Assembly (NCBI GenBank): GCA_024401395.1
Contig: JAKSLD010000023.1
Location: forward strand, 1-46,749
Direction of reading: 5' to 3'
DNA length: 46,749 nt
Source: Bacteroidales bacterium
Lineage (GTDB): Bacteria; Bacteroidota; Bacteroidia; Bacteroidales; Marinilabiliaceae
Each line of letters begins with the position of its first letter. Positions within the stretch are counted from its first letter, which is position 1. Shown here piece by piece: positions 5,975-28,760 of the stretch. A model generated the notes under the pieces. It saw nothing but the letters and a program-made list of their open reading frames with translations. It ran no database searches and had not been told where the DNA came from. A program made the translations under genes and the position numbers.

Positions 5975-5991
5975 TCCATATCAACATCTAA

Positions 5992-6033
5992 AACAATGCG
6001 GATAGACCAACAATCTATCCGCGTTGTTTTTTT
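5992..6033 (+). terminator. Intrinsic terminator after the GH5 gene
   Basis: GCGGATAGA (5998-6006) pairs with TCTATCCGC (6014-6022), extended by flanking AACAA/TTGTT, then a run of seven T (6027-6033). The stem lacks an equivalent T-run for the converging helicase gene. Confidence 0.9.
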
Positions 6034-6128
6034 ATGAGCAAAAAATAAATCGCAACTCTTTTTATTGAGCATTGAGTTCTATGATAGATATAGTCTTCAT
6101 ATTTATCTCATTTTACTTTTAGCCCGTA

Positions 6129-8186
6129 TTATTCGGACTGCTCGGCGAATTCCTGCTTCTTGATTCTCCGAATTAAATAAGAAACGGCCTTAGGTGACTT
6201 TTCTCTACACTCCTTAAGTTGAGCAAGAAACTCTTCCTCTGTGGCATCTGAATTGAAAAGATCTACCAACTCGCAGTTATTGTCAGACTGTTTGTCTAGT
6301 TTCTGATTACGATATTGCATCAGCGTGCGCAATGCTAGTATACCTAGATCATACTTGGGACGAGCCTCAACCAGCTTTCGCATAAGGTCAAGACCAGGAT
6401 CTCCTATATACATCTCGTTGAGCATGGCAATCATAAAAAGAACTTTCGCATCTGGAGTCGCCATTTCAAATACGTTCGCAAGTTGACAGTTCACCTCGTC
6501 TGCTTCTGCATAACGTTCTAGTTTAGCCAATGCACGCGACTTTATGTACAACGCTTCAGGACACTGATGGGCAGAGAGCGTCTCTTCAATGTAAGCTAAT
6601 GCCTCTTCATATTTTTGAGCGTAAAGGCTGAGTAAAGCAGCAAGGAACTTTGGCGCCCAATGACTTGCTCGTAGCAGATTTTGAGGAACTGTCTCAATGT
6701 CCCCATAGAGATGTTCATCACATACTAGAATATCAAGAAAACGCTTAGCCTGCTGCATAGCCTCCTTGATATCGCCATCTTCAGCCTTTTTGGCTACAAG
6801 CAAGAGGTACTGTTTGGCTGCTCCATCGTAGTCATCGCGGAGTAATGATTTATATACAGCTTTACCGCTCTCTATTTCGCTACCTATCTGTTGCTCATTG
6901 TTGTATTCACTAGCATAAGTAAGTATTTCATTACTCGTATGAGCATATTGAGGAATAATATTCTTCGAAAGGAATAGCCCTTCTAAAGTTCGCACTCTAC
7001 TAAGTGCCACATAAAGCTGACCAGCAGCAAACATACCACGGCTCAGATCAAGCGAGAGCTTGTCAAAGGTCATTCCTTGACTTTTATGGACGGTAATCGC
7101 CCACGCAAGTTTAAGAGGATACTGTGTGAATGTTCCCGTCAGTTCCTTCTTCATCTTGCGCTCTCCTTTATTGTAGTCATAGTTGTACGACTCCCATGAA
7201 CAGCAAGGTACTACATATGTTTCGCCGTTATTGAGTGTCACACTTATCTCGTCTTTTGTTAGTTTTGTCACTTTGCCAAGTGTGCCATTTGCCCAGCGCT
7301 TATGTTGGTCGTTTCTTGTAAACATCACCTGTGCACCAACTTTCAGACGAAGTTTCTGATCTACAGGAAACTTCTTGTCCTCAAACTTACCTTCTATGGT
7401 TCCCTCATAAACATACTCTTCCGAGTCTATTTCTTCCAGACGCTGTAGGTTTATCTTTTCTGCAGTCTTGTTGATAGATGCCAGTATGATTACTGCTCCA
7501 TCCTCTGCAGCAGGTGTATACACACGGCTATTTAGATGCATGATATCCTCTGGGGTTACTCTGTTCATGCGCACGTTTTCCAGGATATGAAGAAAGTGCT
7601 CATCATCTTGTCGATATACCTTACGGAACTCTATCTTGACCAGACGCATGCGCTTAATGGCTTCTGACTTGTAGAAGAAATAGTCTTCGGTTTGATACAT
7701 ATCCTTTAGCAAATCTTTTTCTGGTCCTTGAGTTACCACAGGAGGCAACTGGAACATGTCTCCTACGAAAATCATCTGCTTCCCGCCAAATGGCATAGTG
7801 TTACGAAGTGCCTTGCGCATAGTGTAGTCAATAGCATCTATGATGTCGCATCTTACCATCGAAACTTCATCTATTATGATTGTATCAGCATGAAGCAATG
7901 CAAGAATCTTCGCCTCACTCATCTTACCACATGTGCCAGGTACACATACTTCCAATGGCAACCCGAAGAAGGAGTGAATAGTGTCTCCTCCTGCAAGTAT
8001 GGCAGCAACACCTGTAGGGGCAAGTATGATGAACTGCTTCTCCACTAACGTCTGTACGTTGTGAAGAAACGTTGTTTTACCTGTCCCTGCTCGTCCTGTA
8101 AGGAAAAAACTGGAGTTTGTGTTGGCAACCAACTCGTATGCGAGCTGCTGCTCTCGATTCTGTGGATCTATCTGTGTGTTCTGCAT
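6129..8186 (-). CDS. PIF1/RecD-like superfamily 1 helicase with TPR-like C-terminus
   Basis: 685-aa cytosolic AAA-type helicase. Walker A is GRAGTGKTTF (31-40), Walker B IIIDEVSM (103-110), motif III VGDMFQLPP (141-149); the C-terminal helicase motifs appear as AITVHKSQGMTFD (363-375) and LYVALSRVRT (391-400), the UvrD_C_2/RecD arrangement of PIF1-like enzymes. Residues ~440-680 are helical with alternating A/L/Y consistent with TPR repeats, an addition seen in Bacteroidetes homologues. Expected to unwind DNA or resolve structured or R-loop DNA; the specific role is unknown. It begins 3 nt after the stop of the upstream unknown gene (8190-8696), so the two are co-transcribed. Confidence 0.88.
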   Translation of the reverse strand: MQNTQIDPQNREQQLAYELVANTNSSFFLTGRAGTGKTTFLHNVQTLVEKQFIILAPTGVAAILAGGDTIHSFFGLPLEVCVPGTCGKMSEAKILALLHADTIIIDEVSMVRCDIIDAIDYTMRKALRNTMPFGGKQMIFVGDMFQLPPVVTQGPEKDLLKDMYQTEDYFFYKSEAIKRMRLVKIEFRKVYRQDDEHFLHILENVRMNRVTPEDIMHLNSRVYTPAAEDGAVIILASINKTAEKINLQRLEEIDSEEYVYEGTIEGKFEDKKFPVDQKLRLKVGAQVMFTRNDQHKRWANGTLGKVTKLTKDEISVTLNNGETYVVPCCSWESYNYDYNKGERKMKKELTGTFTQYPLKLAWAITVHKSQGMTFDKLSLDLSRGMFAAGQLYVALSRVRTLEGLFLSKNIIPQYAHTSNEILTYASEYNNEQQIGSEIESGKAVYKSLLRDDYDGAAKQYLLLVAKKAEDGDIKEAMQQAKRFLDILVCDEHLYGDIETVPQNLLRASHWAPKFLAALLSLYAQKYEEALAYIEETLSAHQCPEALYIKSRALAKLERYAEADEVNCQLANVFEMATPDAKVLFMIAMLNEMYIGDPGLDLMRKLVEARPKYDLGILALRTLMQYRNQKLDKQSDNNCELVDLFNSDATEEEFLAQLKECREKSPKAVSYLIRRIKKQEFAEQSE

Positions 8187-8189
8187 AAC

Positions 8190-8696
8190 TTATTTCTGTT
8201 CTATTTGTGGAAGAATTTGCGTGAGTCGTGTATTGAAGTCACTATCGAGGTAGCTCTTGTAGCAACCATCAATAATCATCTTTACTTTCTCATCTAGCTC
8301 AGTCTGCGGCATACTGCTTTTCTGGGCTTTTAATACTCCCTTGAAGTAGTTGCTCACCATAGCTTCTGTTTCTTTCCGGATGAAACCCTCATTACGGAAT
8401 TCTTTTTCATAGTCTTTCTTCTGGACTAGTTCAAGTCTTGTCCCATTAAACGCATAGATCTCTATACCGTCTATGTACGTCCAGTTATGGAAAAGACCTA
8501 CCTTCTCAACTATGACAATGCGATCACAGAATCTCACACCTTTATAGTATCTATGTCCATTAGCTGTCTCATAGTCTTCACAGAGAAACATTTTCTGTTC
8601 CTCATCCCATACAGGGATATGTACACGAGGGCTGCCAAATGTAGGTAGTATGCTTTCGAACAAGTCTTTATTAATCGCTTTTGTCAAGTTTGCCAT
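8190..8696 (-). CDS. Unknown protein, paralogue of its upstream neighbour
   Basis: 168 aa with no signal peptide or membrane segment; function not recognised. The ATG at 8696 (MANLTKAINK) is chosen over a longer open frame because the extension overlaps the upstream gene and reads as low-quality sequence. The middle reads YYKGVRFCDRIVI then TYIDGIEIYAFNG, which aligns with YYKAIRLSDRLAI and TFLNGITLFAWNG in the gene at 8758-9201, and both end in a C/Y-x-K-S/H-x-L helix. The pair therefore arose by duplication. It lies 3 nt before the helicase gene, and conserved linkage would suggest a shared process with it. Confidence 0.75.
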   Translation of the reverse strand: MANLTKAINKDLFESILPTFGSPRVHIPVWDEEQKMFLCEDYETANGHRYYKGVRFCDRIVIVEKVGLFHNWTYIDGIEIYAFNGTRLELVQKKDYEKEFRNEGFIRKETEAMVSNYFKGVLKAQKSSMPQTELDEKVKMIIDGCYKSYLDSDFNTRLTQILPQIEQK

Positions 8697-8757
8697 AATG
8701 ATTTTGTTTTTTGTTGTGTTAATACTGTTACGGTTCTTCATCCTAGTGCATCTCAAA

Positions 8758-9201
8758 CTATGCGAGGTGCTTCTGATAAGTCGCCTCAACCATAGTTCGC
8801 GAGAAGTCTACAAGTTGCCTGTCCGCCACCATGCTTCCCATTGCTTTGGCCTGGCCAGCAAGAAAATTCTTCAGCATCAGGATGCATTCTTCCTTGGCAC
8901 TACGTTCGTTAAAACATCGCCAGTTGCTACCTCCCCAGAACTTCTGTGCAATGATGTTTGCCTTCTGCCCATTCCATGCAAACAGCGTGATGCCGTTGAG
9001 AAAGGTACGAGCATAGCCTTCGCCAATGTGGTAGTATATTGCTAGTCGGTCCGACAGGCGTATAGCTTTATAGTAGGTGTTGCCAGCTGCGCTGGTGTAA
9101 CCTAATGTGAGACACACGTTCTTCTCAGCATTGTATGTGAGAGAACTGCCCGAAAGGGCTGGAAGTGCCTTTGCGGCAATAAGTGCGAGTGTTGTATTCA
9201 T
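8758..9201 (-). CDS. Unknown protein, paralogue of the 8190-8696 product
   Basis: 147 aa, cytosolic, not assignable to a known function. It shares the core pattern YYK-A/G-I/V-R-x-x-DR, about ten residues, then T-F/Y-x-x-GI-x-x-x-A-W/F-NG with the next gene. The N-terminus (MNTTLALIAAKALPAL) is mildly hydrophobic but lacks a charged signal-peptide start. It is first of a likely three-gene operon ending with the helicase (61 nt to the next start). About 90 nt upstream is a regulatory element (9293-9368) that is repeated in front of the gene at 9385-9798. Confidence 0.7.
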   Translation of the reverse strand: MNTTLALIAAKALPALSGSSLTYNAEKNVCLTLGYTSAAGNTYYKAIRLSDRLAIYYHIGEGYARTFLNGITLFAWNGQKANIIAQKFWGGSNWRCFNERSAKEECILMLKNFLAGQAKAMGSMVADRQLVDFSRTMVEATYQKHLA

Positions 9202-9263
9202 GTTCTTGCTTTTTTGTTTGTTAGACGGAATAGGCCGCCACCTCTAATTGTAGAATAAGTACT

Positions 9264-9479
9264 TTAAACAAAACCAATTCTCTCGGAATTGCAGTGCAAT
9301 ATTACATCGTTTATATCGCGTTGCACAGGATTATCATTCGTATATTGGCACCTCGCATTTTGGAACCAATACGGCTCATATCCACTACGCTGCGAATCTC
9401 CTTTTGCGAATATCTTCCATACATCGGCTAATGCAAGATATTGATATCCGAATTGACGACAAATCTTTTGATCTGCCAT
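9264..9479 (-). CDS. Small unknown ORF, possibly the frameshifted end of the gene upstream
   Basis: 71 aa from the ATG at 9479 (MADQKICRQF), not recognised. The stretch YQYLALADVWKIFAKGD looks like real protein, whereas the same DNA in the frame of the overlapping gene reads as a Ser/Ile/Arg-rich tail. Two explanations fit: a separate gene overlapping its neighbour by 95 nt, or the true C-terminus of that neighbour after a single-base slip near the A-rich run around 9480. Its last third overlaps the repeated element at 9293-9368, which encodes YWFQNAR here. Confidence 0.4.
   Translation of the reverse strand: MADQKICRQFGYQYLALADVWKIFAKGDSQRSGYEPYWFQNARCQYTNDNPVQRDINDVILHCNSERIGFV
9293..9368 (-). 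promoter_or_regulatory. Two-block regulatory repeat, copy A
   Basis: Minus-strand order: TGGTTCCAAAATGCGAGG (9368-9351), 45 nt unlike copy B, then GTAATATTGCACT (9305-9293), whose TAATATTG is one mismatch from the -7 consensus. It lies about 90 nt before the gene starting at 9201. Copy B (9820-9896) has the same two blocks 46 nt apart. Conserved ends with a diverged middle suggest a regulator site plus promoter. Confidence 0.45.
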
Positions 9480-9798
9480 TCTTTTTATGGGCGGCTTGAG
9501 CTTGCCGCTTTTCAACTATACGCCTGAGTATCCTATTTTGAACGCTTTGTGACTTTCCCTGATTGCGGTAATTAAGGTTAAGCAGTATGCCATCTAATAC
9601 CTCTATTTCAATCTTTTGGGTTGTCATATCACACACGTCTTTTATAACAGCTTTCTGATAGCGTCTGGTCGCTTCAACTTTCTGCCAGCTTTCGTATACT
9701 TTTCTTCTCGCTTTTGCTGAAGCTTTTTTTGCGCTATCTGAATGCTTCTTGGAATAGTTTGCTGTCATCTTTTTTGTATTATTCTGAATCTGTTTCAT
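9385..9798 (-). CDS. Small basic unknown protein, C-terminus uncertain
   Basis: 137 aa, strongly basic and Lys/Arg/Ala-rich at the N-terminus (AKKASAKARRKVYESW), helical, no known family. A nucleic-acid-binding role is only a guess from charge. The ATG at 9798 is preceded closely by AAAGG. After about residue 107 (HKK) the reading looks spurious, and the overlapping frame (9264-9479) reads as better protein, so the annotated end may result from a frameshift. The proposed promoter lies in the repeat at 9820-9896. Confidence 0.5.
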   Translation of the reverse strand: MKQIQNNTKKMTANYSKKHSDSAKKASAKARRKVYESWQKVEATRRYQKAVIKDVCDMTTQKIEIEVLDGILLNLNYRNQGKSQSVQNRILRRIVEKRQAQAAHKKNGRSKDLSSIRISISCISRCMEDIRKRRFAA

Positions 9799-9819
9799 AT
9801 GCCTTTGTTTTAGTTTCTG

Positions 9820-9896
9820 AGTGCAATATTACTATATGTTTTTAATGTTGATGGCAGCTATATGCTTATATAATAGTTCCTCTCATTTTGGAACCA
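9820..9896 (-). promoter_or_regulatory. Two-block regulatory repeat, copy B
   Basis: Minus-strand order: TGGTTCCAAAATGAGAGG (9896-9879), 46 nt, GTAATATTGCACT (9832-9820). The upstream block contains the inverted repeat GTTCC-N9-GGAAC. The TAATATTG box would start transcription about 15-20 nt before the ATG at 9798. The start-to-start distance to copy A is 527 bp. Confidence 0.45.
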
Positions 9897-9908
9897 TTCA
9901 CACATAAC

Positions 9909-9951
9909 AAGGGTAGCGTCAACCCCTCATTACGAGGGCGACGCTACCCTT
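9909..9951. terminator. Long hairpin between the WYL operon and the 9.8-kb locus
   Basis: AAGGGTAGCGTC (9909-9920) pairs perfectly with GACGCTACCCTT (9940-9951), and CCCTC/GAGGG pair inside. Neither side has a strong T-run, but the position just after the WYL gene and the 12-bp stem favour a transcription terminator or 3'-end stabiliser. Confidence 0.65.
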
Positions 9952-9980
9952 ATATTATATAGACTGTATTGAATTGTATC

Positions 9981-11075
9981 CTATTGGAAATCTACATTCT
10001 TAGCATACATTTCAGACATCGTCTTAACTTTCTGAAAGACTTCTTCTCTTACGCTTCTAGGCGACATGACCTCCAAATCTGCACCCATTTGAAGCAATCG
10101 ACCTATCAGTTCTTTATTGACCGCTACTTCTATCGAAAACTCTGCATATTCTCCATCTGCGTATTCTCCAAATTCTTTCTCTACCTTATGCGATGGATGA
10201 ATAGGCTTCGTATCCATCAATCTGAACATATAGTAACTATGCGCCCGGATGACAATCTTTTCTTTCACAGCATCCTTAATATGGCTTACCCCCACTATGT
10301 CTTGGAAAAATGTAGTATAGAATAGAGACGGTGCTGGTATGTATTTTTCAATATAGTTTTCTCGAGGCCTCTTTTGTATTCTGTCTAGAGCTATATTATA
10401 TCCGTTTTCTGGCTCCCTGCCTTCTGCATGTCCAAACAGATGCCATCTTCCATTGTACTCTTTAAGATAATGGGGATGAAGCATTATGGTTACCTGTTCT
10501 TCATCAAACGGTTTGTAATCTATCTCCAAGACTGTTTTATTGACAATAGCTTCATAGAGTACCGGCAGATACTCTATGTTTGTTAATATGCGGTCAAGAC
10601 TTGCACTGATTACCTGCTCTCCTTTTTGTCGTTTCGACTTCATGTCAAGTAAATCCTGACAGTCTTTAAAATAATATTCTAGCCAGGGTCTTGGAAAGAA
10701 CCCTGCCGAATCTTGACAGAACTTCCAATACTGACGAAGGTTGTTAATTACCTTGGCATTACGCATATCAGCAAGAGGATCGTTGTCCTTGCCTATGTAA
10801 CGGAAGCGCAAATCACGATTATTGCCTTCGGATTCAAAGCAAGTTCCTTTTACTCTTTCCGAAATGGCTTTTTTCATAATGCCAATGATCTTCTTCAGTT
10901 CGCCATAACCATCACAATTGGATAAGTTTGCTGGGAGTTCCTTCTTTGACACTCCAAGACGTTCTGCCATAATATCAGCATTAGTAACCCATCGAAGACT
11001 CATCAGCCACCGATAGGTTATTATAGCAAATTCTGCTTTATAGCTCTCGCCATCAAAAAGATTCTTGCGTTGCAT
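9981..11075 (-). CDS. WYL-domain transcriptional regulator
   Basis: 364 aa. The N-terminal ~110 residues are helical with a winged-helix-like stretch (TNADIMAERLGVSKKEL). Residues ~173-245 form a WYL domain (VLEIDYKPF, then HPHYLKEYNGRWHLFGH and YNIALDRIQ). The C-terminus fits the WCX extension (LLQMGADLEVMSPRSVREEV). WYL regulators commonly bind a nucleic-acid-type ligand and control phage-defence operons (BrxR and CapW are characterised examples). Its ATG shares a base with the stop of the large STAND-like gene (TAATG), so it is translated in the same operon and probably controls it. A large hairpin (9909-9951) follows. Confidence 0.88.
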   Translation of the reverse strand: MQRKNLFDGESYKAEFAIITYRWLMSLRWVTNADIMAERLGVSKKELPANLSNCDGYGELKKIIGIMKKAISERVKGTCFESEGNNRDLRFRYIGKDNDPLADMRNAKVINNLRQYWKFCQDSAGFFPRPWLEYYFKDCQDLLDMKSKRQKGEQVISASLDRILTNIEYLPVLYEAIVNKTVLEIDYKPFDEEQVTIMLHPHYLKEYNGRWHLFGHAEGREPENGYNIALDRIQKRPRENYIEKYIPAPSLFYTTFFQDIVGVSHIKDAVKEKIVIRAHSYYMFRLMDTKPIHPSHKVEKEFGEYADGEYAEFSIEVAVNKELIGRLLQMGADLEVMSPRSVREEVFQKVKTMSEMYAKNVDFQ

Positions 11076-11077
11076 TA
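11075..11077 (-). promoter_or_regulatory. TAATG stop-start overlap coupling the two defence-candidate genes
   Basis: The TAA of the large STAND-like gene (11077-11075) shares its last A with the ATG of the WYL gene (11075-11073). This arrangement normally couples translation by termination-reinitiation and keeps the regulator in fixed ratio to the effector. Confidence 0.8.
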
Positions 11078-14000
11078 GTCTTCCTTTAATCTTACATTCG
11101 TTGCATACCAGAATGTCTTATTGGCATTCCTGTCATTAGGTCTTGACTTCGCGGTGAAAATTACAGTCTCATCTTCATAGCAATCTGTATTTCTATCTTC
11201 TATTTTCAATGGGAATGGATAGATATCGCACTTTATTTTCTTGTATCCGCCATCCATTATAATGATACCATCATAGTCATTTCCATCAACAAGTTTGTTC
11301 TTTCTTGTATCTTTATTAGTTGGTTTGAACTTGCGAGATATGGAGAATGTGGATGGATCAATAAAGTCGACTTGTTTTAAGCTACTCTTGAAAGCTTCTG
11401 TTGGTTCCGCTTTTGGTTGTTCCTCTTCAACCAAATCTTCTGTGGGAACATAAGATTCAGCAAGTTCTTCAAAAGAAATCTCTTTTTCATCTTGTACATC
11501 CATATACAATTCTGTTAGTTCTTCGTCTATATCTGGACGGAAATCATATAATCCAGGACCACTATATGAAAAGCCTAAAACTCCTCTTAGAGTTTGACCT
11601 TCGGCATGGAACTTATCAAGTCTATTGGCTTTAAATGAAACATCTATTCCGCATAGCATTTTCAGGATTCCTTTGTTGTTATTAACGTGTTGAATTACAC
11701 CCGTAACGGTGCAAGCATCTGTATCTTTTCGATTCTTGTCAACTATACAGTGGATGTCTTCTTTCTCACCTAGATAACATAGCGGCTGAACCGTTCCTTT
11801 ATCAAATCTCTTGGCGAAATCCTCCGACTTGCGGAAATATGTCATTGCCAATTGCGACAATTCCTTATTGGGAACTCCTGCCAATATGGATTTTGCGCTA
11901 TAACACACAGCCAAATAGAAACATGCATTCAAATAACCCCAACCAATTTGGTCGCCGCTAGAAAATTGATGTTCCCATTCTTTTAGTAAGTCTATTGCTT
12001 CATCTATTGAGAATTCGTCAGGACCATAGAGTTTTAAGAGAAATAAAGTTTCATAACTTTTAACGTCCCCTTGATTCTTTTGGTACTCCAGCACTTCTTC
12101 TATCACCATCCTTTCTGATTTTGTCAGATTAGAATAGGCTCGTCGTGTGTCCTTTGAGGACTTCTTGCTGTAAACTATAGACTTTACTAACAAATTGCCA
12201 TAAAGAGACTTGTTCTCCTTTGTTGCGTTATTATACATAGTGCGATAGCGTTGTATCGATTCTGCGTTTAAACCTACAATATTCTGGTGGAAAGCTCGAA
12301 CGGATTCGTAAATAGGATATGAGTTCATGATTTGGCTCAAACCTTCATTCTTAAATGCGTAACAGATTTGTTCAAATAGATCCAACACATTACCTAGCTT
12401 CTCCGCATAATCAGAATATATTGAGTTTGTTTCACAGAAAGAGTAGTCGTTACAACCTATAATCTTTTGTCCAAGAGTTATACTTTCCTTAAACAATTGA
12501 CTCTCTGCTGCATATCCATAAGGACTTGCAGGACTGATTTGAATACTTTGTTCAAATGCTTCATAAGCATCTTGAGTCCATTCATGTAAACAATCTTCAA
12601 CATCTTGAATGTTTACATCCTCAGGGGTAGTCAGCATATCTCTTGTAAATGACTTAGACAAGGCGCTAATTTTTCTTCTCAACAACATTCCCTGCATGTG
12701 GAATAGATCTGCATCATTAGAATTTAAGTCAAATGCCATGTTGAGATTATCTTGAGCGTCAGAGAATAAGCGGTCTTCAATTTCTATCCCCTTTAGCATA
12801 GATGCTTTTTCGTAAAGGAATCTAGCAAAGTGTCCTCTGAAAATTGCATCTTCGGGAAATGCATCCACAAGTGTCTTGAATAAAGACTCGGCTCTTTCTA
12901 TGTCATCAAGATCCCTAATCAACAAAGAAAATTTATTCTTGATATTATCTCTACTATCTTCAATAGCTCGATAATCAGCATTCTTTCTGATTATAAAGAC
13001 GCTATAAAGCATATCTCTATCATCAGAACCAAGTTCACCGGCATTTTGGCAAAGGGATATAAAATCTTTTGCAATCTCAGAAAGACCAAGTTCCCAATTG
13101 GTCTTGTATGCTTCCAAGATAAACTCGGAGAATCTGTTATATCTAGGACGCCATATACCTTTACCAGTTCCATCGTCATTCATTTCCTCAATTAACAACT
13201 TAGAAATGGCATGTTGTTGCTCAAAAGTGTAGGAACGAAGTGATTGATGGAATTCATCTTTCCAAAGAGATTTTAGAATTGTTTGATTTACCCCCAAATC
13301 CGAATATTTAAAAACGAATCCTACATATGCGCAAAACTTGCGGAGATTTTCTGGAAGTTCGTCCATCCACTCGCTCACGTATGTAGAAAGATTCGTACTC
13401 GTTTCTTTGTCCTTGAGCATTAATGGGAAATCTACTACTTCTAGATTTTTTTGATTTTTCAGAGCTCCTTCAAGGATAGAATGTTCAAGACCTTGTGTGG
13501 TGTACTTTTCCACGAATCTTTGCTGTTCCTCCGTTTTTAAATACGAATCAAGAAGTATGACATTCTCTTTCTGGGTATGGTATCGTCTTGTGTAAGGTTC
13601 TATGTAAAAGAACAGAACCTTCTTTGCCGCATCAGACATTCGTTTGACAAGATTCTCGAATTTGTCTTTGGCAACATGTTTTGATTCAACGATGGCAAGA
13701 ATGACCGTATTTTCTGTTTGCTCTGAGAGCTGACAAAGATACTGTTCCGTTAGTTTTATATTACTACAGTTTTTTATATCAATGACGGTACAAGAGATTG
13801 CACCAATCTCATCTTCTTTTCGAATATCAAAGGCAAGTCTTCTTGCTAATGTGGTTGCGCCACTGCCTGGCCTATGTCGCAACGTGTATATTTGAGTACG
13901 TCTTATGGTTCTGATAATTTCAGAGACTCTGAGTTTAACATTACGATAAATATCTCGAATGACATCATGTTGCTTATCTAATTCTTCCCACGTGATTTCT

Positions 14001-15418
14001 GCTCCAGAATAAAAGTCCCATGGTCTTTCTTCTGCGGTATTTTTCGTTGGTCCATAAAATTCTATGCCAGAAGCTTTGTATCTTTCAATAGATTCTGACA
14101 AATCCAACTTATTATTGTGAATCAGCAACCTCTTACTAGAGCCCATTGTTACATTGCCACGTATTTCTTTGATATGTTGTAAAAACTCTGAGAAAGATGC
14201 CGAAACGAAACATACAGGCACATCGTAGTCTTCTGACCATGACGTAAGTTCATCTTTATAATTGTCATTTTTGGTAAATGATATTATTTTGCATCGATTG
14301 GCAACTGATTCCCAAGAGCCAAAAACAATTTCCAGTTTTTCGAATATTCTTTGAGCCAACTTGGGAAAATTATCGCAAAAATCAATAATGATATAATCAT
14401 TGGTTTTGCCAGTCTTAACTAACTTCGAAAATGTATTTGCAAATAATTTAGGAGTTTCCCTAAGTGCTTTTCTGTCATCATAGGCGCCAAGATCCAATCT
14501 TCCTTTTCCGAAAATCCAGTTAGTTAGATTAGAAGTACCAGAGACCTCACTTAAATTATCTGTAATTATTCTTGTGGAAGATTTTACATGAGAGGGAGCA
14601 TTCTCGTATAAACCAAATTCTGTCTTAGCGTCCAAATCTACGACGAAACTCCAATGCAGTTGAAAGAAGTCAGCCAATCGTTCTTTGCTTAGTGAATGTC
14701 CATTATGATCATTCAATAATTCTGGCAAAATGATAACATAATCGAGTCCCGCTGCCTGTTCCATTCTATTTGTCAGTTCATCAAAAACAAGAAAATCATT
14801 ACTTGTTTTGAGAGAGTTCTCCACGCACGAACTTTGAAATGTTACGTTGCTAAGAGGTTTGTTTAAAGTTGATAGAAAAGCAATAGTTTCATTCGATAAA
14901 ATTTTTCGCAAATCGCTAAAAACTTTAGGCATGAAGGTAGAAAGATTCTTGGCCTCAATTTCATTTTCAACTGTTGAAACCCCATCATGCATACCAACTT
15001 CGCTACTATTCTTGAAATCCGATGCTAACTTGACAAAGTCACTATCAATAGCACTTTTTATTCTGTTAACAGTCCTTTGCGTCGAGTACGAAGCCAAGGT
15101 TTTACCTTTTGTGTAATATATTACCTGCCGAGCGAGTGAAGCGAGCATTGAATTTTCTACCGCTCGATTTGTAGGTGTATCAAAAGATGCTGTACAATTA
15201 TTATAGTCACAATGCAATGTTTTCTGTCCAGATAGAAGTTCCTCTGCCAAAATAGCATCAACCAAATCAAAGATGACCAATTTACAGAATGTTTCTATTG
15301 CAGGACGAATGTTCCTAAAAAACAACACACAATCTCCACTATTGTAATTATCTATAGCTTCGTTATAATCGTGTTGAAATCTTATTTTTATATCTTCCAT
15401 ATGATCTGTTTTATCCAT
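11075..15418 (-). CDS. SAMD9-like STAND-type P-loop protein with HEPN-like N-terminus, TPRs and OB-like C-terminus
   Basis: 1447 aa. Residues ~1-175 resemble a HEPN/DUF4145-like helical domain (VLFFRNIRPAIETFCKL, then SSEVGMHDG and a long helix). Residues ~205-420 are alpha/beta (DYVIILPELL, HWSFVVDLDAKTEFGLY, NWIFGKGRLDLGAYDD), at the place where SAMD9-family proteins carry a predicted SIR2-like region. The P-loop is RPGSGATTLARR (516-527), with Ala521 where Walker A normally has Lys; a probable Walker B strand is TVILAIVES (571-579). Residues ~780-1200 are TPR-like helices. Near 1240-1305 and in the last ~65 residues lie beta-rich segments resembling OB/cold-shock folds. This order matches SAMD9-like predicted STAND NTPases. 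It is overlapped by an XRE remnant upstream and a WYL gene downstream, and its DNA looks more A+T-rich than the flanking core genes. Anti-phage function is inferred, not shown. Confidence 0.7.
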   Translation of the reverse strand: MDKTDHMEDIKIRFQHDYNEAIDNYNSGDCVLFFRNIRPAIETFCKLVIFDLVDAILAEELLSGQKTLHCDYNNCTASFDTPTNRAVENSMLASLARQVIYYTKGKTLASYSTQRTVNRIKSAIDSDFVKLASDFKNSSEVGMHDGVSTVENEIEAKNLSTFMPKVFSDLRKILSNETIAFLSTLNKPLSNVTFQSSCVENSLKTSNDFLVFDELTNRMEQAAGLDYVIILPELLNDHNGHSLSKERLADFFQLHWSFVVDLDAKTEFGLYENAPSHVKSSTRIITDNLSEVSGTSNLTNWIFGKGRLDLGAYDDRKALRETPKLFANTFSKLVKTGKTNDYIIIDFCDNFPKLAQRIFEKLEIVFGSWESVANRCKIISFTKNDNYKDELTSWSEDYDVPVCFVSASFSEFLQHIKEIRGNVTMGSSKRLLIHNNKLDLSESIERYKASGIEFYGPTKNTAEERPWDFYSGAEITWEELDKQHDVIRDIYRNVKLRVSEIIRTIRRTQIYTLRHRPGSGATTLARRLAFDIRKEDEIGAISCTVIDIKNCSNIKLTEQYLCQLSEQTENTVILAIVESKHVAKDKFENLVKRMSDAAKKVLFFYIEPYTRRYHTQKENVILLDSYLKTEEQQRFVEKYTTQGLEHSILEGALKNQKNLEVVDFPLMLKDKETSTNLSTYVSEWMDELPENLRKFCAYVGFVFKYSDLGVNQTILKSLWKDEFHQSLRSYTFEQQHAISKLLIEEMNDDGTGKGIWRPRYNRFSEFILEAYKTNWELGLSEIAKDFISLCQNAGELGSDDRDMLYSVFIIRKNADYRAIEDSRDNIKNKFSLLIRDLDDIERAESLFKTLVDAFPEDAIFRGHFARFLYEKASMLKGIEIEDRLFSDAQDNLNMAFDLNSNDADLFHMQGMLLRRKISALSKSFTRDMLTTPEDVNIQDVEDCLHEWTQDAYEAFEQSIQISPASPYGYAAESQLFKESITLGQKIIGCNDYSFCETNSIYSDYAEKLGNVLDLFEQICYAFKNEGLSQIMNSYPIYESVRAFHQNIVGLNAESIQRYRTMYNNATKENKSLYGNLLVKSIVYSKKSSKDTRRAYSNLTKSERMVIEEVLEYQKNQGDVKSYETLFLLKLYGPDEFSIDEAIDLLKEWEHQFSSGDQIGWGYLNACFYLAVCYSAKSILAGVPNKELSQLAMTYFRKSEDFAKRFDKGTVQPLCYLGEKEDIHCIVDKNRKDTDACTVTGVIQHVNNNKGILKMLCGIDVSFKANRLDKFHAEGQTLRGVLGFSYSGPGLYDFRPDIDEELTELYMDVQDEKEISFEELAESYVPTEDLVEEEQPKAEPTEAFKSSLKQVDFIDPSTFSISRKFKPTNKDTRKNKLVDGNDYDGIIIMDGGYKKIKCDIYPFPLKIEDRNTDCYEDETVIFTAKSRPNDRNANKTFWYATNVRLKED

Positions 15419-15605
15419 TTTTGTTTACTATTAGTTCACGCATACTGACTTAGAGTACATAGGAAATCTTTGCCAGCGTCTGCAAATCAAGTTGCGTGGT
15501 GTTTGTACACCTCTTGAAAACAGTTACGGGATTCTTACTTAATTGCTCTGCATACCAGATACCAGTTTTATTTGCATCAGACAATGCTCTTTTAATTCTA
15601 TTCAT
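15411..15605 (-). pseudogene. Small XRE/HTH regulator interrupted by an in-frame stop
   Basis: From the ATG at 15605 the frame reads MNRIKRALSDANKTG, WYAEQLSKNPVTVFKRC and LDLQTLAKISYVL, the pattern of short Bacteroidales XRE helix-turn-helix proteins (MNRIK...WLAEQLGKS...QPDL..L..IA). A TAA at 15452-15450 (codon 52) stops it after 51 residues, yet the same frame continues with VSMRELIVNKNG, the expected family ending, to a second TAA at 15413-15411 that overlaps the ATG of the STAND-like gene. So the full gene was about 64 codons, with one sense codon now a stop. The 51-aa product may still fold, or the regulator may be lost. It sits between the operon promoter and the large gene. Confidence 0.7.
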
Positions 15606-15634
15606 ATTTCCATACAATTATCTTTAGCACTACG

Positions 15635-15663
15635 CAAATATACGAAATCACATTACAATTCAA
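15635..15663 (-). promoter_or_regulatory. Promoter of the XRE/STAND/WYL operon
   Basis: Minus-strand TTG (15663-15661), 18 nt, then TATATTTG (15642-15635), a perfect TAnnTTTG. Transcription would start roughly 20-25 nt before the XRE start at 15605. Confidence 0.65.
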
Positions 15664-15809
15664 GAGTTTTTTTAGAAAAGCTATATATGATTATTTGAAC
15701 GGCTCCTTCGTAATAGTTTTCGGGGGTCTTATATGAATAATTGCCATCTAACAAACTATTCGTGCCAACATGCAAAGACATACCCTTCCCAGCTTCACTT
15801 CTACCTCTC

Positions 15810-16163
15810 TCATTCTTTTCCCTCCTCAAATTTTGGCTCCAGTTCCTCTTCCAGCATCCGCTTGTGAACAAGATATCCCTCCTCGCTGAAGCATTTTAGA
15901 TACTGAAGGTAGTTCTTGTAATCCTCAACAGCTCCATCTATCCCTGCGCCCACATAATCTAAAATATGATCAGCATAGTGAAAGGCTAACTTATTTACAT
16001 CCATTTCATGCCTAAACATGGCACGATACAATCCTGCAGCACGACGATCAAGGTCCTCACTTAACAGAACATTCATCTGTTTAATGGCATCCACAAGACT
16101 GGCCAAAGCAACATCACTATTTGTCATTGCATCATTAGAATCTGCACACATAATCATCGTCAT
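15810..16163 (-). CDS. Unknown helical protein, probably truncated at the 5' end
   Basis: 117 aa from the ATG at 16163; ATGs at 16157 and 16151 are equally possible. Helical and acidic (ALASLVDAIKQMNVLLSEDLDRRAAGLYRAM ... EELEPKFEEGKE), no recognised family. The DNA just upstream reads as protein in two other frames: AKIGFEGEVYFCDAENG from an ATG at 16252-16254, and EMKAFEINNQDDDDYVC at about 16150-16200. Joined with two slips they would give one coherent longer protein, so this may be the surviving 3' part of a decayed gene. Alternatively it is intact and the upstream readings are chance. Confidence 0.45.
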   Translation of the reverse strand: MTMIMCADSNDAMTNSDVALASLVDAIKQMNVLLSEDLDRRAAGLYRAMFRHEMDVNKLAFHYADHILDYVGAGIDGAVEDYKNYLQYLKCFSEEGYLVHKRMLEEELEPKFEEGKE

Positions 16164-16227
16164 CTTGGTTATTAATCTCAAAGGCTTTCATCTCGCCTGC
16201 CATTTTCAGCATCACAAAAGTAAACCT

Positions 16228-16249
16228 CCCCTTCGAACCCTATCTTCGC
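16228..16249 (-). repeat. 22-bp element, copy 1
   Basis: Minus strand reads GCGAAGATAGGGTTCG then AAGGGG; 5 nt later comes TACTTTTG (16222-16215), a -7 consensus box. It differs from copies 2 and 3 at two positions. Confidence 0.6.
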
Positions 16250-16293
16250 AACCATTCCCTCAATCTATTAGGGTACTCGTCCCTGAAAGACAT

Positions 16294-16365
16294 CATCTTG
16301 GACACATCTTGGACATTTTATTTATAACAACCTATATATCAACACATTCATCTTGGACAAAATCT
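16294..16365 (-). pseudogene. Decayed duplicate of part of the downstream ATP-binding gene
   Basis: On the minus strand this stretch reads VQDECVDI, a stop, VVINKMSKMCPR, then a stop. The ATP-binding gene at 16713-16796 encodes VQDKYADIERIVNNMFKICPR. The nucleotide match includes GATTTTGTCCAAGAT and TGATATA and the same 11-bp periodic element. It is therefore a fragment of a second copy of that gene's 3' region, left between the two genes. Confidence 0.6.
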
Positions 16366-16475
16366 GTCCAAGATATTATCATAATTACCTCGAGTCAATC
16401 TACAAAGAAACTTTTGTTCAAATATTTTTCTTACGAGTATTTATTCAATGGGATAGCATACTTGTTCGTCATCAT

Positions 16476-18050
16476 TCAGTTTGACATTAGAATTCTCTTA
16501 CCCAAATCAGACACTTCATACTTTTGATTCTTGCTTCTTGGTTTATCTGGCATAGTCATATTGATAGCCTCCATTTCTAACAATACGTCAAGGTATTTTC
16601 GTCGTAATTGTTTATATGAAATATCCTCGATACCCAGTAGCAACTCTTGCGCAGAAACAGGTGTCACACAACGCAACAGACAAGTAGCAAGCATGCGAAT
16701 TTGCGTCAAGTCCATATCTTGGACATATCTTGGACATATCTTGAACATATTATTTACAATTCGCTCTATATCAGCATATTTATCTTGGACAAAATCTTTC
16801 CTACATGGTATATCTATCAAGAAATATGTACGCGCTTCATCAGTTTCGATAACGGCCTTTGATGACCCATTTTCTCTCAATTTCTTTTGAATAGTAGGAA
16901 TGCCTGTCGCTCTGCCTTCGGTCAGGTCAAGCTCTTTAAGAAACTCTCCCAGACGTCGATTTCTATATCGTCGAGAACGAAGCATATTTGCTTCACGAAT
17001 GGAATCCATACTGATAGAACGATCAGGACCCGAATAGCTTAGAATACTGATACGATGTGGTTCAATTGTAATCTCCACAGGTTCACGCTCCATATAATCT
17101 CTATGATAAAGCGCGTTGACGACAGCCTCTTCAATCGCCTGATAAGGGTAATTAAATATTTTAATTGATCTTTCATCATCTGCTTGTTTTATGATACGCT
17201 CTTGAATAACATTGGTTCGGATGTAACGTAGCGTATCTGTTATCATTCGCGGCACAGGTCCAATAATGGCAGGCACCTCAATGAAATTCTCAGGATTAGC
17301 CTCACGACCTTCAGGGAAGAGTACTATTTCAACACGTGAAACAGGAAAAAACTTGCAAGGATCTTCGCAGAACATCATGGCTGCCACATTTTTTATCAGT
17401 CGCTTTTCTACCGGACCGTCTAACAATCCCATCTGATCAAGAACTGATTCTAGATTGGCCGAAAGCTCAACATCTACTAGACGACTATTAATCTTATGCA
17501 GATAGTCATTAACCAACAATGGCGAAATATCCTTGAGCTGAATTCTATCGTTACCTCTTTCGTCAAAAGGAACACGATTTGCCATATCACGGAGTTGATC
17601 CAAAAATTCACCTTTAGCCTCAATCGATGAAGTACCATAGCGAATATAGAAAACAGGCTTCTTAAGTTTTGCTGTTACATCTGCTGGAGCCGAATAAGGT
17701 CGCATGCTTCCTGCAGGGACCCATATTACTAGCAGAGATGTATTGTCAATCTCTTCAACCGAAATGCGAGGAGCATAAAAAGGCTCAATCATTTGGTTGT
17801 ATTGCAACATCTCTCGCTGTATATGGTCGAGAGACTCTCTTGGAATTCCTTTTACCGGACGTTGTGCCACACCGTCTTTTTCTTCAACACCCACAAGGAT
17901 GTAACCACCTCCAATATTGTCTATATCATTAGCAAACGCACAAATGGAGTGATAAATAGACACAGGATTCCACCCCTGTTTGAACTCTATTCTGTTCGAC
18001 TCCACCTTGCGCTTAGTCAAGAGGTCTTCTATGTTTATGAGTAACGCCAT
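16476..18050 (-). CDS. AlbA_2 (Schlafen-type) and HATPase_c_4 ATP-binding protein
   Basis: 524 aa. The N-terminal ~130 residues match the AlbA_2/Schlafen DNA-binding domain (ESNRIEFKQGWNP, ICAFANDIDNIGGGYILVGVEE). Around 300-400 is a GHKL-type ATPase region (YPYQAIEEAVVNALYHRDY, GRATGIPTIQKKLRENG). The end (~450-524) looks like a winged helix (TPVSAQELLLGI, KYLDVLLEMEAINM). Such proteins are annotated as putative transcriptional regulators or RecG-like and are frequent in mobile or defence regions; their biochemical role is unsettled. An 11-bp tandem repeat (16713-16750) interrupts the coding region before the winged helix. A short broken ORF (18088-18225) and a copy of the 22-bp element precede it. 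The start ATG at 18050 follows an A-rich site. Confidence 0.82.
   Translation of the reverse strand: MALLINIEDLLTKRKVESNRIEFKQGWNPVSIYHSICAFANDIDNIGGGYILVGVEEKDGVAQRPVKGIPRESLDHIQREMLQYNQMIEPFYAPRISVEEIDNTSLLVIWVPAGSMRPYSAPADVTAKLKKPVFYIRYGTSSIEAKGEFLDQLRDMANRVPFDERGNDRIQLKDISPLLVNDYLHKINSRLVDVELSANLESVLDQMGLLDGPVEKRLIKNVAAMMFCEDPCKFFPVSRVEIVLFPEGREANPENFIEVPAIIGPVPRMITDTLRYIRTNVIQERIIKQADDERSIKIFNYPYQAIEEAVVNALYHRDYMEREPVEITIEPHRISILSYSGPDRSISMDSIREANMLRSRRYRNRRLGEFLKELDLTEGRATGIPTIQKKLRENGSSKAVIETDEARTYFLIDIPCRKDFVQDKYADIERIVNNMFKICPRYVQDMDLTQIRMLATCLLRCVTPVSAQELLLGIEDISYKQLRRKYLDVLLEMEAINMTMPDKPRSKNQKYEVSDLGKRILMSN
16713..16750 (-). repeat. 11-bp tandem repeat inside the ATP-binding gene
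   Basis: Plus-strand unit catatcttgga at 16713 and 16724, then catatcttgaa at 16735 and a partial fourth unit. The period is 11, not a multiple of three, so the protein reads each unit in a different frame (FKI, CPR, YVQDM). Confidence 0.85.
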
Positions 18051-18475: not shown

Positions 18476-19825
18476 CTACCCTACATACTTCCCCAACACC
18501 TTCTCCAACTGCCCTACATAATAAAATGGCAAATTGATCAGCCGGAATGTCCTCCCGTTACTTGTTTTTACATCATCAACGGATAACGGCTGCGACCATA
18601 CTCTTACTGCCACATCGTGTGTTGTTGCATCCATAAATTGATGTAGCGATTTCAGTTTGGCATTGTGCCCCGACTTGACTTCTATTGGTATCACTAATCC
18701 ATTGTATGGGTATACAAAGTCAACCTCGGCTTCGGAACCTATACGGTCACTGCGCCAATAACTGCGATGCGCAGATACGTCATTGCTTATGGCTAGCAAC
18801 TCTTGTCCTACAATATGTTCTGCTATACGACCTCGCCAGACATCACTCACGTCGGCTACAGAAAAAACATCTCTCTGTATGCCTGCCACATAGTTCACAA
18901 GTCCTGTATCAAGCCATAATAGCTTCGGACGTTTGCGCATATTGGTCATAATAGGCATCTGCTCACTTGTCGTCGGATAGACCAATTCCAGTAACATGGC
19001 CTTGGATATTATACGAAACGCTTCGCTCATCTCGCGCGATCTGTAATTGGTCCCGGCAAAACCTTCAAATGTAATTGTCTCTGCCGCACAATTCCAACCA
19101 TTGCTCAGAATGCTTCTTATTACTTTTGTCATACTGGCACTGGCTGTATATTTCTCCACGTCATCACTATATGACAGGAGCAACGATTCAAATGTATCCT
19201 TTACACTGAGTATATCTCTGTTCTGCGAATATGCCACTATCGCAGCTGGCATTCCTCCGCACAACATGAATTCTCTAAACCGACTCATTAAGCGTTGGTG
19301 TATTATCTCAGGCACTTCTATTGTCTCTACAAGCGTCTGGTCCATCGCTTCTCCCATCGCGCCCAAGAACTCTGTAAATGTACAGGGGCGTAAGGCCATA
19401 TATTGAACACGCCCTACAGGAAACGATATCTTCCGCACATCCATCAGTGTCTCAAGCAAAGATCCTGCGCCAATGACATGTATGTGGTTCGCCTCTTCAT
19501 AGAAATAGCGCAGCATAGCTACTGCCTTACTGGAGTTTTGTATCTCGTCAATGAACAACAGAATATTACCTTGGGTTATCGGCTGCCTCTTGAGTATAAA
19601 AACTGCTCGTATCAGTTCATTGACATCATTGTATACTTCAAACAGGTTTCGGTCGTCTTCTTTCTCTAGATTGAGATGCAGAAACACATCGTACTCTTTC
19701 GCAAATTCAGTGACAAGTGTAGTTTTTCCCACTTGGCGAGCACCTCTCAATATGAGCGGCTTGCGACTGGTCGAAGTTCTCCATTCTCTCAATCGCATCA
19801 GAGCATTTCTGTTAAAACATTCCAT
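18476..19825 (-). CDS. AAA_14 ATPase with DUF4143 domain
   Basis: 449 aa from the ATG at 19825 (MECFNRNALMRL); an ATG four codons upstream is possible. Walker A is LRGARQVGKTTLV, Walker B LLFIDEIQNSSKA, followed by VIGAGSLLE, the AAA_14 signature. The C-terminal DUF4143 region contains EVDFVYPYNGLVIPIEVKSG, the D...ExK pattern of a PD-(D/E)xK nuclease-like fold. The family is abundant and variable in Bacteroidales; biological role unknown. Upstream are four 33-bp-period repeats (19859-19973) that carry promoter-like boxes. Confidence 0.88.
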   Translation of the reverse strand: MECFNRNALMRLREWRTSTSRKPLILRGARQVGKTTLVTEFAKEYDVFLHLNLEKEDDRNLFEVYNDVNELIRAVFILKRQPITQGNILLFIDEIQNSSKAVAMLRYFYEEANHIHVIGAGSLLETLMDVRKISFPVGRVQYMALRPCTFTEFLGAMGEAMDQTLVETIEVPEIIHQRLMSRFREFMLCGGMPAAIVAYSQNRDILSVKDTFESLLLSYSDDVEKYTASASMTKVIRSILSNGWNCAAETITFEGFAGTNYRSREMSEAFRIISKAMLLELVYPTTSEQMPIMTNMRKRPKLLWLDTGLVNYVAGIQRDVFSVADVSDVWRGRIAEHIVGQELLAISNDVSAHRSYWRSDRIGSEAEVDFVYPYNGLVIPIEVKSGHNAKLKSLHQFMDATTHDVAVRVWSQPLSVDDVKTSNGRTFRLINLPFYYVGQLEKVLGKYVG

Positions 19826-19849
19826 AACACCTAACATTCAGACTTTTAC

Positions 19850-28151: not shown

Positions 28152-28760
28152 CTACAATGCAGCCTTGAATACTTCTTGCAACGATGGATAACTCTCTTTC
28201 ACTAGTCCTCTTAGCTCTCCGACTGCTATCCACTTCGCCGACACTATATTCTCTTCTGTCTGTGGCTTCAGTTCCGGAACCCCAGCAACTGTCATCTCAA
28301 ACCATCTTGTTCTCTTCAGTGCCATCTCTCCTTTCAATGGATATGTATGATACGTATCGCATATCATATTCCCCAATGCTAGGCCCGATAGCCCGGTCTC
28401 TTCATTGACTTCCCTCAAGGCATTCTGCTCAGGTGTCTCTCCTTGTTCTTGCTTCCCCTTTGGCAAATCTATCTTGCCTAGTCGCTCTATCACAAGATAT
28501 TCTCCTTTTTCATTCTCAACAAGACCACCAGCTGCTTGTATATACTTGTAGCACTCTTTTACATGCTCAAGCAGTCGCTCTATATCATGGTAATAGACAC
28601 ACCCGCTCTTCAACTCTTCTTTCGCGTCGAAGCTACGGAGAAACTGTCTCAGCTCGTTCTGATTGGAATACTTGTGGATGGCATCATACCCACCCACAGG
28701 CATACCTTTCTCTATATCTGTCGCCAGAGTCAGCGTCCTGTCACCAAAATATATCTGCAT
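28152..28760 (-). CDS. NUDIX hydrolase
   Basis: 202 aa. The Nudix box is exact: GKQEQGETPEQNALREVNEE followed by TGL (G-x5-E-x7-REVxEExGL), in the middle of the protein, preceded by YIQAAGGLVENEKGEYLVIERLG. The N-terminal ~65 residues form an extra domain. Such enzymes hydrolyse nucleoside diphosphates linked to other groups; the substrate is not predictable. The ATG shares a base with the asnS stop (TAATG), so it is translationally coupled to asnS. Confidence 0.9.
   Translation of the reverse strand: MQIYFGDRTLTLATDIEKGMPVGGYDAIHKYSNQNELRQFLRSFDAKEELKSGCVYYHDIERLLEHVKECYKYIQAAGGLVENEKGEYLVIERLGKIDLPKGKQEQGETPEQNALREVNEETGLSGLALGNMICDTYHTYPLKGEMALKRTRWFEMTVAGVPELKPQTEENIVSAKWIAVGELRGLVKESYPSLQEVFKAAL

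Follow-up and report, generated by a model that had tools for sequence, protein, structure and literature searches.

A SAMD9-family STAND gene in the exchangeable slot of a probable modular defence cassette of Bacteroidales

In a stretch of 46,749 nt from a Bacteroidales bacterium (Marinilabiliaceae; GCA_024401395.1, contig JAKSLD010000023.1; hereafter the window), a gene for a SAMD9-like STAND protein of 1447 amino acids (aa) lies between a broken XRE gene and a WYL regulator gene. The original prediction took these three genes, at 9981..15605, for an operon and a candidate undescribed defence system. According to our in silico analysis, the three genes are present as predicted but the borders were drawn too narrowly: the recurring unit extends beyond them, through S137, S147, S168 and a PIF1-like helicase gene to position 6129, with the SAMD9-like gene as the exchangeable component. 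We consider it probable that 6129-15605 (minus strand) is one modular Bacteroidales defence cassette, made of a fixed frame and an exchangeable defence gene, here of the SAMD9-family STAND type. The frame would consist of the WYL regulator, S147, S168 and a PIF1 helicase with a TPR-like end, often with S137 and, in some copies, with an XRE gene upstream. Read along the minus strand, the order in the window is promoter-like box, broken XRE, SAMD9-like gene, WYL, S137, S147, S168 and PIF1-like helicase, with the following features.

15635..15642, minus strand: TAnnTTTG promoter-like box (TATATTTG) 5' of the XRE gene, kept in 5/5 aligned upstream regions
15450..15605, minus strand: XRE-type regulator, broken, 51 codons and then an in-frame stop (tblastn to the L005 XRE, translation)
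11075..15418, minus strand: SAMD9-family STAND protein, 1447 aa, exchangeable cargo (open reading frame, SAMD9 chain profile match, nSTAND_NTPase5)
14849..15418, minus strand: N-terminal domain, residues 1-190, at most weakly HEPN/DUF4145-like (the Chlorobium relative has AlbA_2 there)
14030..14812, minus strand: residues 203-463, at the place of the SAMD9-family SIR2-like domain (17% identity alignment to the Chlorobium relative)
13850..13876, minus strand: lysine-less P-loop HRPGSGATT, residues 515-523 (translation)
11078..11326, minus strand: C-terminal domain, residues 1365-1447, common with the 610-aa cargo ATPase of L045 (hidden Markov model, blastp)
9981..11075, minus strand: WYL-WCX regulator, 364 aa (Pfam; alignment of 11 cassette WYL proteins)
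9385..9798, minus strand: S137, small gene with no function assigned (presence in other loci)
8758..9201, minus strand: S147, frame protein of no known family (co-occurrence across loci)
8190..8696, minus strand: S168, S147 paralogue, frame protein of no known family (alignment, co-occurrence)
6129..8186, minus strand: PIF1-like helicase with a TPR-like C-terminal part, 685 aa, frame protein (Pfam, alignment)

To delimit the frame, we compared the 21 loci that carry S147 or S168 (the window, L004, L005, L006, L008, L014, L015 and L043-L056). The upstream side could be read in 17/21, L015, L043, L052 and L055 being excluded by contig ends, and L007 stands outside the set since its contig ends 16 residues into a WYL-like frame. 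S147, S168 and PIF1 are contiguous in 18/21 loci; two others are cut by a contig end before S147, and L056 has S147 alone. A full-length WYL gene was present in 13 of the 17 readable loci, in 10 between the cargo and S147 and in three on the far side of the cargo. S137 recurs in L005, L008, L044 and L048, with a 27-aa piece in L046. All five loci that were found through the SAMD9-like protein and have a readable downstream side (window, L004, L005, L006 and L008) carry S147-S168-PIF1; this count omits L007, which is cut, and L049, which was found through S168. Because the SAMD9-like gene, S147 and S168 are all rare, the triad in 5/5 loci is not background.

The rarity is seen in genome counts, within the limit that single-protein queries miss distant members. 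The S147 query matched 1/71 genomes of the window's family and 3/393 of the order (own genome included; G369 matched via its S168); with the S168 profile, which picks up S147 too, there were matches in 1/14 genomes of family f5 and 14/349 of family f59. With the SAMD9-like query we obtained 1/71 genomes in the window's family, 1/393 in the order and 2/395, the second being a Chlorobium protein (own genome included each time); the same Chlorobium protein was the match in 1/98 genomes of the Chlorobium class. We also considered S147-S168-PIF1 as a mere common chromosomal landmark, a proposal weakened by the low counts (1/71, 3/393, 14/349).

S147 and S168 are paralogues with 26% identity. S147 has no match in PHROGs, PDB or NCBIfam (Pfam was not run for S147), and S168 has no convincing match in Pfam, PHROGs, NCBIfam or PDB. 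The helicase matches Pfam PIF1 at 6.5e-33 and, under the cut-off, TPR_16 at 1.5e-4. A retropepsin-like aspartyl protease gene follows PIF1 in L005 (15717-16622, by Pfam) and, as relatives, in L043 (5296-6267) and L048 (5554-6474).

Across the 17 readable loci, the slot holds different genes. SAMD9-like genes occupy six (window, L004, L005, L006, L008 and L049), and two each hold type III CRISPR-Cas genes (L014 and L047), an NsnB/OLD-like ATPase with a partner (L046 and L051), a large P-loop protein with a second ATPase (L044 and L045) and related GHKL ATPases with partners (L050 and L056). AbiL was found in one (L053: AbiLi 1e-96, AbiLii 3e-30) and a CRISPR array with a DUF3825 protein in another (L048), a related protein being present in the L049 frame as well. 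At L014, PADLOC identified III-D Cas5 and Cas7, CARF-HEPN, CARF-PDDEXK, Cas1 and Cas2, while L047 has relatives of the L014 Cas7, CARF-HEPN, Cas1 and Cas2, plus a repeat array. The large proteins of L044 and L045 are related, and that of L044 matches nSTAND1 at 1.4e-7. Septu lies beside the SAMD9-like gene within the L006 locus (PtuA 5e-155, PtuB 1e-64); with the other known defence systems in the same slot elsewhere, the surroundings of this gene are rich in defence genes.

The large P-loop genes span 2439-7544 in L044 (1701 aa) and 2861-7507 in L045 (1548 aa, without a PADLOC match). The GHKL-ATPase genes, at L050 1253-4942 and L056 9578-14042, have partners labelled receiver-like by eye and no PADLOC matches; the partner parts are split in L050 and fused in L056.

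Exchange of the cargo was seen when we aligned the window with L005, the locus of Leyella stercorea. The SAMD9-like reading frames are 96.0% identical in DNA, against 73% for WYL, 83% for S147, 72% for S168 and 76% for PIF1. A sliding profile in 150-column steps gave 63-89% around XRE, 91-100% from about 15400 to about 11600, 81-91% over the final 500 bases of the SAMD9-like gene and then 51-85%. One housekeeping-type gene (window 28760-30154, presumably the asparaginyl-tRNA ligase gene) is 70% identical in DNA between the two genomes, and set against the 96.0% of the SAMD9-like gene this indicates a recent transfer of the latter. The lineage of the window and Leyella stercorea have thus recently swapped cargo. 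Conversely, blastn finds nothing in common between the cargo of L005 and that of L044, yet the two loci are 83% identical in a 4989-bp match that begins at the WYL start codon and 88% identical in a 185-bp match at XRE. In the draft genome of Leyella stercorea DSM 18206, the SAMD9-like gene (L005 6457-10796, 96% identical) is interrupted by a frameshift near residue 383, which is either real or a sequencing error.

We then placed the cargo on a tree of the helicases, with 19 rows of which 15 have a known cargo. L052 (helicase in two frames) and L056 (no helicase) were excluded, the longer piece of the split L004 helicase was used, and L015, L043 and L055 (cargo unknown) and L054 (none) were left unlabelled. 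SAMD9-like cargo requires 5 changes, at least 4 of them forced by starred branches, compared to a shuffled mean of 4.9, and all cargo together requires 8 changes compared to 8.7, a value as low being reached in 62/200 shuffles. L047, with its type III genes, falls into one group with L006 and L008, both of them SAMD9-like loci, at 97/96. Whichever history is assumed, the cargo does not follow the helicase tree of the frame.

At the genomic level, the 14.4 kb that the window has between the Rnf genes and a GH5 gene are an island, since the congener G065 has other genes at this site, over 5.3 kb. No match to a cassette protein was found in the five congener regions compared (G065 and four others, in which the GH5 gene was not found). 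Neither 72,556 plasmid records nor 50,697 phage records contained a relative of the SAMD9-like protein or of S168; viral contigs were scanned as well and returned no SAMD9-like protein, S147 or S168. The Chlorobium relative matched 8 plasmid records, each time with its AlbA_2 part.

The cargo of the window was analyzed further. The predicted 1447-aa reading frame at 11075-15418 (minus strand) was confirmed, as were the W...VVDxD and NW-x-F-x-KGR motifs, which are kept in close relatives, and the P-loop, HRPGSGATT at residues 515-523. A scan of 84,980 species genomes returned relatives in 5 Bacteroidales loci (62-96% identity in the best segment) and in Chlorobium ferrooxidans (23%); a further copy, in L049, is 56% identical. 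Used alone, the protein sequence has no match in PADLOC (0 families at E 0.01), NCBIfam or PHROGs, and Pfam places nSTAND_NTPase5 at the P-loop region at 9.2e-6, with 26 of 34 bits and under the curated cut-off. A profile of the window protein and 6 relatives, however, matched the SAMD9 chain 37ib_A (967 aa) in PDB at E 1.1e-8 (hmmsearch), and another profile of relatives matched the same chain at E 3.6e-7. The match is colinear over about 500 residues, from just before the P-loop into the TPR part, so that for this core the SAMD9-like architecture proposed at the outset now has sequence homology behind it. The Chlorobium relative alone matches 5 longer SAMD9 chains, four at E 3.3e-4 to 8e-4 and one at 0.022.

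The P-loop itself resembles that of the family. The lysine is absent and an upstream histidine present in 8/8 copies (7 Bacteroidales plus Chlorobium), the motif reading HRPGSGA(T/S)T in 7/7 Bacteroidales copies (window, L004, L005, L006, L007, L008 and L049) and HLPGSGGST in Chlorobium. At the position of the Walker A lysine the Bacteroidales proteins have alanine (7/7) and Chlorobium has glycine; the SAMD9-type glycine itself is not kept. According to a 2017 report, SAMD9 homologues occur in bacteria and their P-loop has glycine in place of lysine (GGT/S), with an upstream histidine (PMC5445408). These sequence comparisons support the placement of the window protein in the SAMD9 family, in a branch with an N-terminal domain that is not recognised as AlbA_2. 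As bacterial homologues are already in print (PMC5445408), the protein is a new member of a described family, with an unassigned N-terminal domain in place of AlbA_2, and the word "undescribed" was too strong for it.

AlbA_2 is the N-terminal domain in the SAMD9 order, reportedly lost or replaced in some members (PMC5445408), and the Chlorobium relative carries it there (E 2.7e-15). The original prediction had read the N-terminus of the window protein as HEPN/DUF4145-like, and we could not confirm this. Among 7 N-termini, Pfam gave no convincing match (best E 0.093) and none to AlbA_2, SAM or kinase domains; a profile of the 7 gave no convincing match in PDB (best E 0.18). With hhalign, the profile aligned to 7 DUF4145 proteins with a probability of 18% (P 0.0013) over just 44 columns, controls giving P 0.66 (reversed alignment) and P 0.58 (S147). 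Residues R38, E42, C45, K46, R119, K121, D125 and H144 are kept in the 7 N-termini, and H144 lacks the preceding arginine considered below. A HEPN identity is possible from these alignments. A search for this N-terminal domain in 28 loci (1679 reading frames, each 60 aa or longer) gave E <0.6 for no cargo other than the SAMD9-like genes. The region that follows aligns with its Chlorobium counterpart at 17% identity, and its search against PDB gave no convincing solved chain. At such an identity, and because the region lies outside the local tblastn match (residues 463-1288), a SIR2-like domain between the N-terminus and the P-loop is unproven.

At the other end, the predicted OB/cold-shock-like fold found no fold evidence; a search of the last domain against PDB gave nothing convincing. 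The last 83 residues recur at the C-terminus of the 610-aa ATPase of L045: a hidden Markov model of this domain built without L045 finds that ATPase at E 1.3e-22, and blastp to the window protein gives 8e-15, with no other blastp match between the two proteins outside the shared C-terminus. One C-terminal domain is thus present on two different cargo proteins; it may dock on a frame protein or simply mark a crossover point. An LGFSYxGP region is common to the window protein and the Chlorobium relative.

The regulatory genes were largely as predicted. The 364-aa WYL reading frame at 9981-11075 (minus strand) overlaps the stop of the SAMD9-like gene with its start as TAATG, and matches Pfam WYL at 3.5e-9 and WCX at 8.7e-8. 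Each of the 7/7 Bacteroidales SAMD9-like copies has a WYL gene close by, either directly downstream or no more than about 2 kb away, that of L007 being seen as its first 16 residues before the contig end (tblastn E 0.006). The XRE remnant was recovered upstream, in a frame from 15605, with 77% over 65 aa to the intact 67-aa XRE of L005 (tblastn); besides the in-frame stop after 51 codons, its start is disrupted. A single consensus promoter had been proposed for these genes. The TAnnTTTG box, a promoter-like match to the Bacteroidales consensus, is kept in all five aligned XRE upstream regions, three with SAMD9-like and two with other cargo, while a sigma-70 scan of 5900-16500 was not clearly above chance (39 found versus 31.7 +/- 5.3 in shuffles).

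From these parts we infer an anti-phage function for the cassette, which would work as follows. The SAMD9-like protein would be kept inactive, with the TPR and C-terminal domains as its sensors of a phage product and the P-loop/STAND core as its means of assembly. The N-terminal domain would then be the effector and abortive infection the outcome. RNase activity is the likeliest guess for this effector, as the domain at that place in animal SAMD9 is a tRNase, which depletes a tRNA according to two studies (PMC12331169; PMC13245274). WYL and XRE would govern expression of whichever cargo occupies the slot, in keeping with reports that WYL regulators control defence loci (PMC9122601; PMC9122588). 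WYL domains also bind single-stranded DNA, including in some Pif1 helicases (PMC9964779, citing earlier work). That the frame combines a helicase with a WYL protein suggests a replication or single-strand signal, and the WYL protein may read single-stranded DNA, possibly tied to the PIF1 helicase.

Several observations weigh against this cassette reading or parts of it. Three of the 17 readable loci have no WYL gene (L047, L053 and L054) and L048 has a 44-aa piece only; XRE, whether whole, broken or a piece, is found in 5/17 (window, L005, L008, L044 and L045). AbiL of L053 sits 3.3 kb from S147, and at L054 the S147-S168-PIF1 triad has no recognised cargo (1/17). The PIF1 tree has few rows, many weak inner branches and one or two rows for most cargo kinds, and it is also compatible with a single gain of SAMD9-like cargo followed by several replacements. 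For the SAMD9 homology, 37ib_A is the one SAMD9 chain matched, the longer chains (1434-1450 aa) not being among the matches listed for these profiles. For the effector, HEPN domains have an arginine a few residues ahead of the conserved histidine. H144 is kept in 7/7 N-termini, but none of the seven has an arginine in the 4-8 preceding residues; with the usual HEPN arginine absent, an RNase effector remains a guess.

Some of these points suit other explanations. The SAMD9-like and WYL genes could form a self-sufficient two- or three-gene defence system, with S147, S168 and PIF1 marking a favoured insertion site and taking no part in it. The swap between the window and L005, in which cargo moved without the frame, the joint presence of Septu and the SAMD9-like gene in L006 and the triad of L054 would all fit this. 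Yet few genomes have S147 and S168, and by eye the genes around the cassette vary from locus to locus; still the frame follows in 5/5 readable loci found through the SAMD9-like protein; we therefore hold this explanation to be rather unlikely. Alternatively, the frame could be a module for the maintenance or transfer of a mobile element, which would have PIF1 as its helicase and the defence genes as accessory cargo. The very patchy distribution of the SAMD9-like gene, S147 and S168, the greater length of the site in the window (14.4 kb) than in the congener (5.3 kb, with other genes), the recent transfer of the cargo, the retropepsin-like gene after PIF1 in three loci and frames near some copies that we take to be relaxase-like are consistent with such an element. 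Against it, S168 and the SAMD9-like protein found no match in plasmids (72,556), phages (50,697) or viral contigs, in searches none of which was aimed at integrases, transposases or common ends, and we regard this explanation as unlikely.

Finally, the SAMD9-like protein could be a stress or signalling regulator with no role in defence. Signal transduction has been proposed for bacterial members (PMC5445408), and no PADLOC model matches the protein. However, its slot is shared with type III CRISPR-Cas and AbiL, Septu accompanies it in one locus, the gene has been exchanged between species and it is rare, and we consider a regulator of this kind very unlikely. A modular cassette with exchangeable defence cargo remains our preferred explanation.

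A wider reading, which we put forward as doubtful, is that WYL-S147-S168-PIF1 is a common control or activation unit for many immune effectors, from SAMD9-like proteins to type III CRISPR-Cas. The helicase and the small proteins would report phage replication, WYL would read the resulting single-stranded DNA, and the slot would be exchanged by recombination between XRE and WYL, aided by the docking of cargo C-terminal domains on the frame. Should the frame have a role in immunity, unrelated effectors would be served by a module common to them.

What is new here is the recurring frame with exchangeable cargo, which lies outside the borders first proposed. The literature on SAMD9 and bacterial defence, WYL, PIF1 and defence islands, covered through titles and the beginnings of abstracts, with subscription journals mostly outside this coverage, held no description of the cassette that we could find. 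The locus provides a natural defence context for a bacterial member of the SAMD9 family, and a 96% identical gene, frameshifted in the draft, is present in a culture-collection strain, Leyella stercorea DSM 18206. S147 and S168, unannotated in the libraries searched, can serve as markers for unknown defence genes, the content of the slot being the candidate; the large slot proteins without a PADLOC match in L045 (1548 aa), L050 and L056 are such candidates.

Two neighbouring genes were recorded upstream of the cassette on the minus strand. At 16476-18050, a 524-aa protein has SLFN_AlbA_2, HATPase_c_4 and Fic-like C-terminal domains, and a 39% identical relative also lies upstream of the L005 cassette. 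At 18476-19837, an AAA_14/DUF4143 ATPase matches the PADLOC candidate PDC-S01 at 1e-177.

Compared to known systems, the window protein resembles animal SAMD9/SAMD9L and their bacterial homologues (PMC5445408; PMC13245274), with which it shares a P-loop-to-TPR core homologous by sequence, a P-loop without lysine but with the upstream histidine, and a further C-terminal part after the TPR region. It differs in an N-terminus without a Pfam match to AlbA_2, SAM or kinase, in alanine where the SAMD9 P-loop has glycine, in a last domain shared with another cargo and in the WYL/PIF1 frame around the gene. Avs5 likewise combines STAND and repeat domains, and its authors report a structural likeness to SAMD9; it has nSTAND3 and an N-terminal SIR2-like effector, whereas the window protein has a weak nSTAND_NTPase5 match and no PADLOC model (PMC12931631). 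BrxR and CapW are WYL regulators tied to a range of defence systems, but the WYL gene of the cassette is mostly downstream of the cargo, in a frame with S147, S168 and PIF1 (PMC9122601; PMC9122588). In a bacterial Pif1 with a C-terminal WYL domain, PIF1 and WYL act together and the WYL domain binds single-stranded DNA, according to earlier work cited there; the cassette has a gene for each of the two, and its helicase has a TPR-like end (PMC9964779). The defence hotspots of P2-like phages and P4 satellites offer the same arrangement of fixed flanks and exchangeable defence genes, while the flanks of the cassette are regulator and helicase genes with no phage recognised around them (PMC9122126).

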